A stretch of DNA of 50,468 nucleotides, taken from NCBI GenBank assembly GCA_001790575.1, contig MGCV01000018.1, positions 1-50,468 of the forward strand, written 5' to 3'. The stretch comes from Candidatus Saccharibacteria bacterium RIFCSPHIGHO2_12_FULL_47_17. Lineage in GTDB: Bacteria > Patescibacteriota > Saccharimonadia > Saccharimonadales > UBA10212. Numbering within the stretch: position 1 is the stretch's first letter; every line of letters starts with the position of its first letter. The position numbers and the translations under genes are program-made. Below are positions 24,980-46,544 of this stretch, piece after piece. A model generated the notes under the pieces. The model had not been told where the DNA came from and did not search any database. It worked only from the letters and a program-made list of their open reading frames with translations.

Positions 24980-25008
24980 TTGAGAAACAGTCGCGCCTGT
25001 GTTAAGAT
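24980..25008 (+). promoter_or_regulatory. Predicted promoter for rplJ-rplL
   Basis: TTGAGA, a 17-nt spacer, TAAGAT. The predicted start at about 25015 is just before the L10 leader. Confidence 0.7.
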
Positions 25009-25018
25009 TTCATCTATT

Positions 25019-25095
25019 GACCGAAGACAGTAGCTTCCCGCCCTTTTAAGTGACAATCAATGGTAAAAGAACGGGATTAATCTGCTACCGAGGTA
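25019..25095 (+). promoter_or_regulatory. L10 ribosomal protein leader
   Basis: Matches the known L10 leader by eye: GACCGAAGACAGTAG at the 5' end, a hairpin arm with TCCCGCCCTT and AACGGGA, and CTGCTACCGAGGT at the 3' end pairing back with ACAGTAG. L10 (with L12) binds this fold and represses its own operon, an established mechanism. A terminator follows, so regulation is probably by attenuation. Confidence 0.82.
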
Positions 25096-25118
25096 AAGAA
25101 ATTTTTTACTGGACTAGT

Positions 25119-25146
25119 CTTTGGTTTAAAACCAAAGTTTTTTTAA
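25119..25146 (+). terminator. Attenuator terminator of the L10 leader
   Basis: Stem CTTTGGTTT/AAACCAAAG with a tiny loop and seven T residues, ~24 nt before the rplJ GTG. Confidence 0.82.
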
Positions 25147-25169
25147 TTTTAGCTGAATGAGAGGACACT

Positions 25170-39377: not shown

Positions 39378-40034
39378 ATGGTTAGCTTAGAGACATTGGC
39401 ACGACTCCCGACTAAGCCTCACACTGATGAAAGAGATTTTGTTTACCATGTAACTCTAAGAAGCCGATTGGGTGATATTGTCTCCGGTCTTGCTTCAAAC
39501 CAGTCCAGAGGTAGTCAGGATTGGCAGAGAATGGAAAATCTGATGGATTTAGTCCGGCCAGACTGTATTGCTTGCATGGGTATCTCTCGAGTAAGTTCCA
39601 TCTATGCCCTTCCTGACTCTTCTGTAGAAGCCATTTACGCCAAGAATACAGCTCCTCTGAAGAACGGAAAGGATTTTCTTGTGACGCTTGAGATAGAAGT
39701 TGATCCGGAGAATGTGATTGTTTGCGATGCGGCCAATATTTCATTTATTGTGGGCGGGATTAGAGGCAGGCGCAAAGCTCGCTTCTCGAAAACATCAGTT
39801 GAATATGCGCAACGATATTGGCAGGCCTCGCTTAGCCTCAAAGACTTTAGATGTTCTTACTCATTAGAGGTAAATAAGAGTGGTTTGCGTTGCGTTCGTA
39901 AACCAAATGTTTCTGAGCAGCTGCCGTACACATTTATTTATCCTGAAGTATTAGTGCCAGCCCCGGTTAATCCAGGCCGTTTACGTTGGGTAAGTTCAAG
40001 CGCACGACCGGTTAAGGAGTATCTCGACTGGTGA
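39378..40034 (+). CDS. Hypothetical protein, unknown family
   Basis: 218 residues, not recognised. DFVYHVTLRSRLGDIVSGL near residue 20, ISRVSSIYALPDS near 70 and LEIEVDPENVIVCDA near 105 recall the His...Tyr...Glu layout of ADP-ribosyltransferase-like folds. This is speculative. No membrane segment or signal. TATAAT ends 9 nt before the ATG, so it is likely leaderless. Its 3' end overlaps the convergent riboflavin kinase gene by 23 nt. Six Cys, none in paired motifs. Confidence 0.6.
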   Translation: MVSLETLARLPTKPHTDERDFVYHVTLRSRLGDIVSGLASNQSRGSQDWQRMENLMDLVRPDCIACMGISRVSSIYALPDSSVEAIYAKNTAPLKNGKDFLVTLEIEVDPENVIVCDAANISFIVGGIRGRRKARFSKTSVEYAQRYWQASLSLKDFRCSYSLEVNKSGLRCVRKPNVSEQLPYTFIYPEVLVPAPVNPGRLRWVSSSARPVKEYLDW

Positions 40035-40401
40035 ACCACTGCCGGGCGGCCAGTTCGTCGTCGCGCATGGCGTGTTTCAATTCATTTTTCGAGGCAAATT
40101 TCTGGTTTGGTCGGTGAAATTTTTCCAAACTTAGCATTAGCTTCTGACCATAGTAGTCGCGATCAGGAATATCTAAAAGATAAGCCTCAACCCGGCGATC
40201 TTTTTTACCGACAGTTTCGGGTGCGCCCACAAAAATTAGTGCCGGTTTATGTTTATATTGTCCGAGCGTGGCATGACCAAAATAGACTCCGTCATCAATT
40301 TTGATATCAGATTTTTTAAGGTTGGCCGTAGGGTAGCCTAGCATACGTCCCATACCATCAAAGCGACTGGTCATACCGCCGATTTTGACAGGCAGTTCCA
40401 T
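40012..40401 (-). CDS. Stand-alone riboflavin kinase domain
   Basis: 129 residues. It matches only the flavokinase half of bifunctional RibF: GMGRMLGYPTANLKKSD, DDGVYFGHATL, VEAYLLDIPDRDYYGQKL and RPNQKFASKNELKHAM. The usual N-terminal FMN adenylyltransferase domain is absent, so FAD synthesis would need a separate enzyme. The ATG directly follows the prs stop (TAG-ATG). Converts riboflavin to FMN, which the PyrD enzyme encoded nearby uses. Confidence 0.82.
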   Translation of the reverse strand: MELPVKIGGMTSRFDGMGRMLGYPTANLKKSDIKIDDGVYFGHATLGQYKHKPALIFVGAPETVGKKDRRVEAYLLDIPDRDYYGQKLMLSLEKFHRPNQKFASKNELKHAMRDDELAARQWFTSRDTP

Positions 40402-41373
40402 CTATATCTGATTTTGACCGCCAAAAATGGCCGAAACCGAACTTTCTTCGAAAATCGCTTTGATGGCTGCCGCCAACAACCCGGCCACTGAAACCACTTC
40501 CAGTTTTGGCGTTCTGAATTTTATGTTTTGCGGGGCGGTATCGGTAACTATTAGAAAATTGATTGGTGATTTGGCTAAACGTTTTTGAGCCGGCGGCGAA
40601 AATATACCGTGACTGGACATGGCCGATATTTTTTCGGCACCGTGTTTTTTGAGCTGTTCGGCTGCCGCGCACATGGTGCCGGCTGTATCAATCATGTCAT
40701 CAATAATTACGCAGTTTTTACCATCAACTTCACCTATAACATCTAGTGCTTCGGCAACATTAGGGCCCATGCGGCGTTTGTGAACAATCGCCAAATCAGT
40801 ACCCAGATAACTGGCATAGCGCTCGGCCAACTTAACTCGTCCCGCATCCGGCGAAACAATCACAAAATCATTGCCAAACTTGGCCTTGAGATGGTCAGCT
40901 AAGGCCGGCAGGGCAGTCAAATGATCAAATGGCCCGTCAAAAAAACCCTGAATCTGGCCGCTGTGCAGATTAAGGCTAACTATACGATTAGCCCCAGCCG
41001 TCGCCAAAATATCCACTATCAGTTTGGCGGCAATTGGTTCGCGGCCGGAGGATTTCCGATCCTGCCGGGCGTACCCAAACAACGGACAAACGGCGGTTAT
41101 GTGTTTGGCGGAAGCCCGTTTAGCGGCATCGATAATTATAGCTTGCTCGATAATGGCATCATTTACCGGGTTGTTATGGCTCTGAAAAATAAAAACGTCG
41201 GCCCCGCGGACCGACTCTTCTAACTGACATTTAATTTCGCCGTTAGCGAAGCGCTTAAGTTCAATTGATCTGACATGTGTACCGAGTCGCTTGGCCACAT
41301 CGGCGGCCAGTTTTGGATGATGTGAACCGCTTAAAATTTGCAACTGTTTCTTATGATTTGTTATCACCATCAC
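40402..41373 (-). CDS. prs: Ribose-phosphate pyrophosphokinase
   Basis: Makes PRPP from ribose 5-phosphate and ATP; 323 residues. KRFANGEIKCQLEESVRGADVFIFQS, FGYARQDRKSSGREPIAAK, DHLTALPALADHL and the PRPP loop CVIIDDMIDTAGTM are diagnostic. PRPP feeds PyrE, encoded nearby. The frame starts GTG-ATG-GTG; AGAGG lies a few nt upstream. Together with the kinase it forms a two-gene operon. Confidence 0.96.
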   Translation of the reverse strand: MMVITNHKKQLQILSGSHHPKLAADVAKRLGTHVRSIELKRFANGEIKCQLEESVRGADVFIFQSHNNPVNDAIIEQAIIIDAAKRASAKHITAVCPLFGYARQDRKSSGREPIAAKLIVDILATAGANRIVSLNLHSGQIQGFFDGPFDHLTALPALADHLKAKFGNDFVIVSPDAGRVKLAERYASYLGTDLAIVHKRRMGPNVAEALDVIGEVDGKNCVIIDDMIDTAGTMCAAAEQLKKHGAEKISAMSSHGIFSPPAQKRLAKSPINFLIVTDTAPQNIKFRTPKLEVVSVAGLLAAAIKAIFEESSVSAIFGGQNQI

Positions 41374-41425
41374 TTAGCCTCTTTAGCTGTAGTGTAACAA
41401 GATATCATTTTGATGCAAACTAAAT

Positions 41426-42523
41426 TCAAATAGTCTTTTTGATTTGAGCTGCCAGTTGCGGATTCCACATCGCGCCGGTAGCTGATTGCACGACGTCGGC
41501 GCCAGCTTGGCGATAGTGATGAAAGTCGGCCGGCGTCATGACTCCTCCAACTCCGACGATCTCAAATTCTGCTTTTGTTTTACGGCGCAATTGATTCAAA
41601 CGTTTGACCATATCAAGACCAGCCCATTTAATAGCCGCCCCGCAAATACCGCTAACTAGGCGGTTTGGTCCGGGCAATGCTTGGTTGCCGTTTTTGTCAA
41701 CCACCGGCGCCGGGATGGTATTGATAGCCGAAATAGCGGCAATATAGGGTGATATTTCCTTAATTACTTTTTCCAGTAGTAATTGCTGCTCGGCTGAGTA
41801 ATAACCGACTTTAACAATCAACGGAATGTTGCCAATTCGCTCTTTAACTCTCCGCGTGATATCAATCACCGGCTCTAATGTATAGCAAAGAATGCCTTCG
41901 TTGGCCACGTTAGGGCAGGACAGGTTTATCTCGATTGCTTCTACATCACTAGATTTAGCCAAGCCGGCGGCTTTGGCAAAATCCTCATAATAATCTTCAT
42001 TGGAGAAGCCTTCTTTAATGGTGCCAACCGCACTTGAAATCAACAGCTGACCTTTGTCTTGATAGCTATGAGCTTTTTTAGTATCGGCCACCCAAAAGAC
42101 TGGGCCCCGCGAAGGATTACCAAAAGAGTTGGTGATCGAAAGCTGCTGGATTGGCTGGTCTGTATCAGTCTTACCCAGCAATGGCTTTGACGTTTTGGCG
42201 AGCGTTAGGTCACCATCTATATCAAGATAGAGTACATTTGGAAATCTGTTGACTTTAAACTCCATGCTTCGTTGGGTCTTGTAAACCACAACGTCAAAAC
42301 CACGCTCAAAGGCATACTTCACATATTTACTGTTCAGGATCGGGCCGGCCGGAATACCAAAAGGTGAGTATAGTTTTTTGCCTAAAAATTTGAATTTTGG
42401 TTGACCGCTATTTTTGTATGGCTTGTCGGTGGGTGATACTAACGTTGGTCCGTCATCAAAATTATCGTCATAAGGTTTAGTCGGATCATAGAACGCTTTG
42501 AGCGCCGAGGTGGTTTTTCCCAT
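41426..42523 (-). CDS. pyrD: Dihydroorotate dehydrogenase, class 1-like
   Basis: Oxidises dihydroorotate to orotate with FMN; 365 residues. SPFGIPAGPILNSKYV, VVVYKTQRS, EINLSCPNVANEG (Cys in the catalytic loop as in class 1; class 2 uses Ser), LIVKVGYYS, and GVGGVMTPADFHHYRQAGADVVQSATG. The first ~45 residues are an extra N-terminal segment. It is divergent from pyrF with 24 bp between the starts. Confidence 0.87.
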   Translation of the reverse strand: MGKTTSALKAFYDPTKPYDDNFDDGPTLVSPTDKPYKNSGQPKFKFLGKKLYSPFGIPAGPILNSKYVKYAFERGFDVVVYKTQRSMEFKVNRFPNVLYLDIDGDLTLAKTSKPLLGKTDTDQPIQQLSITNSFGNPSRGPVFWVADTKKAHSYQDKGQLLISSAVGTIKEGFSNEDYYEDFAKAAGLAKSSDVEAIEINLSCPNVANEGILCYTLEPVIDITRRVKERIGNIPLIVKVGYYSAEQQLLLEKVIKEISPYIAAISAINTIPAPVVDKNGNQALPGPNRLVSGICGAAIKWAGLDMVKRLNQLRRKTKAEFEIVGVGGVMTPADFHHYRQAGADVVQSATGAMWNPQLAAQIKKTI

Positions 42524-42547
42524 TACTTATTACTATACTAAGTTACG
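42524..42547. promoter_or_regulatory. Overlapping divergent promoter pyrD/pyrF
   Basis: The 24-bp gap holds ACTATACT. On the plus strand this gives TATACT (42534-42539), 8 nt before the pyrF ATG. On the minus strand it gives TATAGT (42537-42532), 8 nt before the pyrD ATG. The two -10 boxes share four bases, so both genes should be leaderless and compete for one RNA polymerase site. Confidence 0.7.
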
Positions 42548-43282
42548 ATGCCGACTTTTGGAAGTAAGCTTGGGATAGCCCAACGAATTATCTTGGCGAT
42601 TGACACCTCAAATGCCGATGAAGCTGAAAATTTAGCGCAACTCGCCAAGTCCGCCGGCGCTCGCTTTATCAAATTTGGTTTACAGATAGCCACAGCCAAG
42701 AGCTGGCAATGGTGCGCCGAACTGTCCAAAAAATACGGCCTGGAGTGGGTAGCCGATGCCAAATTGGCTGATATCCCTAATACTATTGAGGCTAGTGTGG
42801 CCAGTTTAGTTGAACTGGGTTATTCGCCATACGCCATTACCATTCACGCCACAGCTGGCCATCAAGCCATGGTTAAAGCCCAAGCTAGTGCCGGACAAGT
42901 CCTGATATTTGGCGTCACCATATTAACCTCGCTTAGCGATGAAGAGTGTCACCGGATTTACGGTTCGTCGGCAAAAGATAAAGTGATGGAACTGGCTCAG
43001 TCAGCCGCGGCGGCGGGAATCGCCGGTATCGTCGCTTCACCAAAAGAAGTCGGCATGATTAAACAAAATGAGGTAACAAAAAGCTTGCTGACTATGATTC
43101 CTGGTTCTCGTTCAACCGAGGCACAGGCGGCCGACCAGGCCAGAGTCGCAACTCCCTCCCAAACTATCACCGCCGGTGCCGATTTGCTGGTTATAGGCCG
43201 TGAGATCACACATGCCAAAGATCCGGCTGTAGCTTTTGCTAAAATTGTCAATGACATCAAGGAAGCAGTAAATGAATTATAA
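42548..43282 (+). CDS. pyrF: Orotidine 5'-phosphate decarboxylase
   Basis: Decarboxylates OMP to UMP; 244 residues. The active-site motif is [10 protein letters not shown], with D70, K72 and D75; also IKFGLQI and the phosphate loop PGSRS. It overlaps pyrE by 11 nt, so pyrF and pyrE make one unit for the last two steps of UMP synthesis. Predicted leaderless. Confidence 0.94.
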
Positions 43283-43871
43283 AGATTTAATTGTTGAACT
43301 TCATTCCATCGGCGCCATAAAGTTCGGCAAGTTTACGCTTAAGAGCGGGATGGTTTCACCAATCTATATTGACTTGCGTGTCCTAGTTTCATACCCGGCA
43401 ACTATGCAAAAAGTGGCCGCAGCCTACGGCCAAATATTAGAACAGCTAAAATTTGATCGAGTGGCAGCTGTGCCGTATGCCGCTTTGCCGATTGTGGCAG
43501 CAATCTCGGTGCTAAACAATCGACCATGGATATACACTCGTAAAGAAGCCAAAAACCACGGCATTAAAAAGCCGATCGAAGGTGAGTATCGATCTGGGGA
43601 GACCATAGTATTGATAGACGATATGGTAACTACTGGTGCTTCTAAATTCGAAGTTATCAGACCTTTCGAATCAGAAGGATTGAAAGTCAACAATATAGTA
43701 GTCTTACTGGATCGGGAACAGGGAGCTAAAAAAATTCTGTCTGATAAAGGCTACAGTCTGCAGGCGGCCTTTACTTTAAGTGATGTCCTTAACATCCTAC
43801 TGGCTGAACAAATTATCACCCGAAAAGTATTTGATGAAGTCAAAAAATACCTTGCCGACAATCAGGCATAA
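43272..43871 (+). CDS. pyrE: Orotate phosphoribosyltransferase
   Basis: Joins orotate and PRPP to give OMP; 199 residues. [20 protein letters not shown] at the start, [15 protein letters not shown] and the PRPP loop [14 protein letters not shown] are diagnostic. The ATG lies within the end of pyrF. It uses PRPP from prs. No carA/B, pyrB or pyrC is seen in the window. Confidence 0.95.
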
Positions 43872-46502: not shown

Positions 46503-46544
46503 GCCCCTTATTTTAGCTCATAGGCTCGTGCTAGAATCAAGCCA

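Follow-up and report, generated by a model that had tools for sequence, protein, structure and literature searches.

A candidate 24-bp bidirectional promoter with a shared -10 box and two predicted leaderless starts between pyrD and pyrF of a Saccharibacteria genome

Introduction

Bidirectional promoters, in which a single -10 region serves two divergent transcripts, account for 19% of the detected E. coli RNAs (Warman et al. 2021, as reported in PMC12825309 and PMC10268837). According to the two latter papers, the commonest geometry in E. coli places the starts 18 bp apart with reciprocal -7T and -11A, distances of 10 and 23 bp are also common, and opposite-strand starts separated by 7–25 bp serve as the criterion for a bidirectional promoter.

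Mixtures of leaderless genes and genes led by a Shine-Dalgarno (SD) sequence are known in other phyla (PMC3160421, PMC12340547). The leaderless genes in these studies, the second one on Deinococcus-Thermus, show a TANNNT or TATAAT-like box some 12 nt upstream of the start, lack an SD and give a genome-wide signal. Both analyses dealt with single-direction promoters, and a text search of the two papers turned up nothing on divergent or bidirectional sharing. The prpD/Rv1129c pair of M. tuberculosis (PMC3898074) consists of adjoining divergent leaderless genes with mapped transcription start sites; the passages found on this pair and on juxtaposed divergent promoters describe no shared -10 box. 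Our literature search found no promoter study of leaderless genes in Patescibacteria or Saccharibacteria, nor, in the literature searched, a description of a 20–26 bp palindromic unit that unites a bidirectional promoter with leaderless starts throughout an order. Bidirectional promoters and leaderless genes are thus already known, and the novelty of the fused, recurrent minimal form considered here is modest.

Results

The gap between pyrD and pyrF

In the window (the whole stretch of 50,468 nucleotides that was analysed) the pyrD (-) and pyrF (+) genes are divergent, and the gap between them contains ACTATACT. The elements of the gap are as follows.

42524..42547, no strand: pyrD/pyrF intergenic gap, TACTTATTACTATACTAAGTTACG, exactly 24 bp, candidate bidirectional core promoter
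42534..42539, + strand: candidate -10 box TATACT of pyrF-pyrE, read from the sequence; 8 nt AAGTTACG, then ATG
42532..42537, - strand: candidate -10 box TATAGT of the pyrD-prs-riboflavin kinase operon; 8 nt AATAAGTA, then ATG; conserved in the relative G001
42546..42548, + strand: predicted pyrF transcription start zone, deduced from -10 spacing
42523..42525, - strand: predicted pyrD transcription start zone, deduced from -10 spacing

The start codons are the ATG at 42523–42521 (pyrD, -) and the ATG at 42548–42550 (pyrF, +), and on both sides alike the -10 box ends 8 nt from the ATG, the distance found in leaderless genes. A sequence-only reading had pointed to the 24-bp gap and to TATACT and TATAGT within it, both of which end 8 nt short of the start codon they face, and this was confirmed from the sequence. 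The two boxes overlap by 4 bp (TATA) within 42532–42539 and form a near-symmetric core, as in the shared -10 of a bidirectional promoter. The 18-bp reciprocal geometry, usual but not defining for such promoters, is not the one found: in ANTATANT, position -12 of one box faces -9 of the other, -11 faces -10, and each -7T falls outside the partner box. Judged by spacing, transcription of pyrD and pyrF could start at the A of the ATG or 1–2 nt upstream, and the opposite-strand starts are predicted to lie 21–25 bp apart.

No SD-like motif occurs on either strand of the 24-bp gap, as would be the case for leaderless pyrD and pyrF. An extended TG is absent upstream of both TATACT (+) and TATAGT (-), and no Rfam leader matched at the gap. 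The same early reading had located the -35 regions inside the opposite genes; the location is right, but no sigma-70-like -35/-10 pair was scored by the promoter scan there or anywhere else at the gap and in its flanks. When the AT-rich gap was shuffled, 1.5% of the shuffles had a -10 match of 5/6 or better at 6–9 nt on both strands, and among arbitrary 24-mers of the genome sample 256 of 194,691 (0.13%) satisfied the same two-strand definition.

Compared with the bacterial bidirectional promoters of Warman et al. (2021), as far as the available accounts describe them, the gap shares the near-symmetric -10 core on both strands, the short distance between starts and the dispensability of a strong -35. 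Unlike the E. coli promoters in those accounts, the predicted RNA in each direction is an mRNA beginning at a start codon, the TATA is shared within ANTATANT at a predicted 21–25 bp instead of the favoured 18, and the promoter would be the entire intergenic region. The position of the box, the missing SD and the genome-wide signal (see below) liken the gap to the leaderless genes of PMC3160421 and PMC12340547, whose promoters differ in being single-direction. It also resembles prpD/Rv1129c in that two adjoining divergent genes have leaderless mRNAs, with starts mapped in that pair and predicted from sequence in ours.

Genes and operons on both sides

The genes flanking the gap are listed below.

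42548..43282, + strand: pyrF, orotidine-5'-phosphate decarboxylase (TIGR01740 above cut-off, PF00215)
43272..43871, + strand: pyrE, orotate phosphoribosyltransferase (TIGR00336 above cut-off), overlapping pyrF; SD-like AAGGA before the ATG
41426..42523, - strand: pyrD-like dihydroorotate dehydrogenase of a divergent subfamily (PF01180 above cut-off, NCBIfam DHODH models below)
40402..41373, - strand: prs, ribose-phosphate pyrophosphokinase (TIGR01251 and NF002320 above cut-off); GTG start, SD-like AGAGG
40012..40401, - strand: riboflavin kinase (PF01687), directly adjoining prs

The idea that two operons of one pathway meet at the gap held, with pyrF-pyrE on one side and pyrD-prs-riboflavin kinase on the other; pyrB is located elsewhere in the genome, away from pyrD/pyrF. 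The steps from dihydroorotate to UMP use PRPP as a co-substrate and FMN as a cofactor. By their gene content, the two arms cover the conversion of dihydroorotate to UMP together with the makers of PRPP and FMN.

The genes pyrD, prs and riboflavin kinase (40012–42523) form one apparent operon, which places PRPP and FMN supply beside orotate synthesis. In the PyrD-like protein (41426–42523), Pfam DHO_dh covers residues 129–364 only, every NCBIfam DHODH model scores far under its cut-off and PDB matches are weak (E about 1e-8); the named relatives belong to Candidatus Nomurabacteria, at about 50% identity.

The leaderless -10 signal in the genome

The sample of the genome itself comprised 195 kb in stretches, approximately a quarter of the genome, with 159 genes. 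A -10-like hexamer ending 6–10 nt before the longest-ORF start preceded 34 of them versus 6–8 at equally wide control offsets, which is about a fifth of the sampled genes and several times the background. The 6–10 nt peak was also present in most of the relatives sampled. TATAAT and TATACT were the commonest hexamers 6–9 nt before starts in the genome sample, and no -35 consensus was seen at the leaderless promoters of this genome. Within the two operons, pyrE and prs are preceded by SD-like sites and the first genes, pyrD and pyrF, are not. Since the -10 peak and SD-like sites both occur, the genome appears to be a mix of leaderless and SD-led genes.

Conservation of the gap in relatives

G001, the only other species of the genus seen, also has divergent pyrD/pyrF genes with an ATG-to-ATG gap of exactly 24 bp. 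The two gaps differ in 4 of 24 bases and share 14 consecutive invariant bases, TTACTATACTAAGT, whereas about 60% of four-fold sites have changed between the species (52/93 in pyrF, 91/146 in pyrD); the binomial P for this difference, with sites treated as independent, is about 4e-5. The 24-bp pyrD/pyrF gap was found in these two species of one genus only. In two more distant relatives the genes are likewise divergent with a longer gap, and SD-like sites precede both genes in G088 and pyrF only in G061, so the minimal leaderless form is not common to all divergent pyrD/pyrF pairs.

Recurrence at other gene pairs

The pattern CAT-N8-ANTATANT-N8-ATG had 18 matches in 295 genomes of the order. Seven of them have an ORF of 100 aa or longer on each side, namely two pyrD/pyrF pairs, tsaD/murE in two families, truB with a PIG-L-like gene, two glycosyltransferase-like genes and one unnamed pair (apart from the pyr genes, names were read from translations by eye). 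All seven carry a core of the type A[CG]TATA[CG]T. The control core TNATATNA had two-sided ORFs in 3 of 30 matches, all from one genus, with similar sequences and ORF lengths, seemingly a single orthologous pair. The comparison of 7/18 with 3/30 (p 0.03) is conservative, because the control core can itself contain TATAAT, but weak alone. Raw counts of the pattern in the order showed no enrichment (18 forward vs about 25 for the reversed pattern), and signal can be told from noise among the matches only by asking whether real ORFs flank them on both sides. Phylum-wide, the strict AGTATACT version matched twice in 240 genomes, once between two long ORFs. The sampled DNA contained 66 divergent pairs, of which three had overlapping boxes with each box at leaderless distance. 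Two of these are the pyr pairs, and the third is in G090, where a 20-bp version, CAT-N6-AGTATACT-N6-ATG, stands before ruvA.

Divergent tsaD/murE genes with 23–26 bp between the starts and a palindromic AGTATACT core were observed at L113, L114, L123, L134, L137, L139, L142 and L048, a spread over several genera and families of the order. At L048, the gap estimate from blast is thrown off by an insertion close to the N-terminus of TsaD; the 24-bp layout is still present.

The murE gene as a natural control

TATACT or TATAAT occurs near the murE ATG in nearly all of the 31 loci examined. An A two bases before this TATA lies outside the murE -10 hexamer; it corresponds to the -7T of the reverse strand and completes AGTATACT. 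This A was present in 11 of 11 loci with a close divergent gene start versus 3 of 18 without one (Fisher p 1e-5). The divergent state is scattered over the murE tree, with about 10 changes; six branch-independent pairs could be drawn, of which about five were informative and all agreed (sign test p 0.06), with state labels set by hand and L125 added as divergent. The pattern of the A base, a result from murE and not from pyrD/pyrF, is the strongest indication that the reverse box matters.

Discussion

The boxes, their spacing, their conservation and their recurrence were all observed at the level of sequence. They are best explained, with a probability of roughly 0.8, by a bidirectional promoter of the sigma-70 type, in which one -10 box serves both directions and gives two leaderless or near-leaderless mRNAs, and the promoter is very probably functional. 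The comparative evidence lends good support to what the sequence-only reading suggested, a divergent promoter whose symmetric -10 boxes overlap and whose two starts are leaderless. In the proposed mechanism, the symmetric TATA core would be the -10 element in both orientations and, as one core would serve both strands, RNA polymerase could load either way. The rightward transcript would be the pyrF-pyrE mRNA and the leftward one the pyrD-prs-riboflavin kinase mRNA, each with its 5' end presumably at its own ATG or within about 2 nt. An mRNA starting at or near the ATG implies that the first cistron would be translated leaderless; downstream cistrons, such as pyrE and prs, would be translated via SD sites. 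From the sequence-level picture we infer that each box drives a transcript, where exactly each transcript starts and that translation is leaderless. The gap could be so short because a shared 8-bp core and two 8-nt discriminators would suffice, with no -35, leader or SD.

An addition to this explanation is that the overlapping promoters would make the two operons compete for RNA polymerase, as the sequence-only reading held, and that this would be a regulatory balancing of pyrD against pyrF-pyrE. Overlapping boxes exclude simultaneous occupancy by two polymerases, interference is known once one direction is activated (PMC12825309), and the EcoRV restriction-modification system offers a case of overlapping divergent promoters with a regulatory role (PMC5333194). 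We nevertheless find such competition unsupported and doubtful, as all five E. coli bidirectional promoters tested (5/5) were too low in basal activity for competition unless one side is activated (PMC12825309), an activator would have little space in a 24-bp gap, and gene pairs that do not obviously need balancing, e.g., tsaD/murE, have the same layout.

It is unlikely that only one direction has a genuine leaderless promoter, with the other box arising merely from the symmetry of TATA and the second operon being transcribed from a promoter inside the opposite gene. TATA is near-symmetric by nature and the divergent RNA at bidirectional promoters is often non-coding (PMC10268837), but pyrD and pyrF both lack an SD before the ATG, the distance to the start codon is exactly 8 nt for either box, both boxes are kept in G001, the flanks hold no alternative sigma-70-like pair, and at murE the reverse-completing base goes with the divergent gene.

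The conservation of the near-palindrome TTACTATACTAA in both species, together with the membership of both operons in one pathway, would also suit an operator for a repressor of both operons, overlapping separate promoters. We regard this as improbable, because the conserved core fits the -10 consensus of the order and the AGTATACT/ACTATACT core is found at unrelated gene pairs with different flanks. Chance occurrence of TATA in an AT-rich gap, although 1.5% of same-base shuffles do equally well, is hardly credible given the conservation in G001 far above four-fold sites, the genome-wide -10 peak at the same distance and the recurrence at other gene pairs; we take the G001 conservation and the recurrence as stronger evidence against chance than the shuffle and 24-mer figures.

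Beyond the shared-box promoter at pyrD/pyrF, we lean slightly towards an order-wide minimal divergon of about 20–26 bp in these small-genome bacteria, in which one palindromic -10 (AGTATACT or ACTATACT) between leaderless starts is under selection and has been gained or lost repeatedly. The reverse-completing base would be kept only where a gene lies across, which implies that a single -10 may be the entire intergenic control region of two operons. Such a unit would unite two space-saving features, the bidirectional promoter and leaderless translation, in these genomes, and 20–26 bp between start codons may be close to the smallest size at which a divergent control region can work. The symmetric base is predicted to be retained or lost together with the divergent neighbour, as the murE/tsaD comparison already suggests. 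For annotation, the choice of starts in these bacteria should weigh the -10 distance besides the SD.

Elsewhere in the window, a ribosomal protein L10 leader (RF00557, 54 bits, Rfam) lies at 25003–25153. A second divergent pair, a VanY-type carboxypeptidase (-) and a VKOR-family protein (+), is separated by a 42-bp gap at 46503–46544, with -10-like boxes 7 nt before both starts and no overlap between them; its G001 counterpart has a 41-bp gap with similar boxes (L061 3981–4021).
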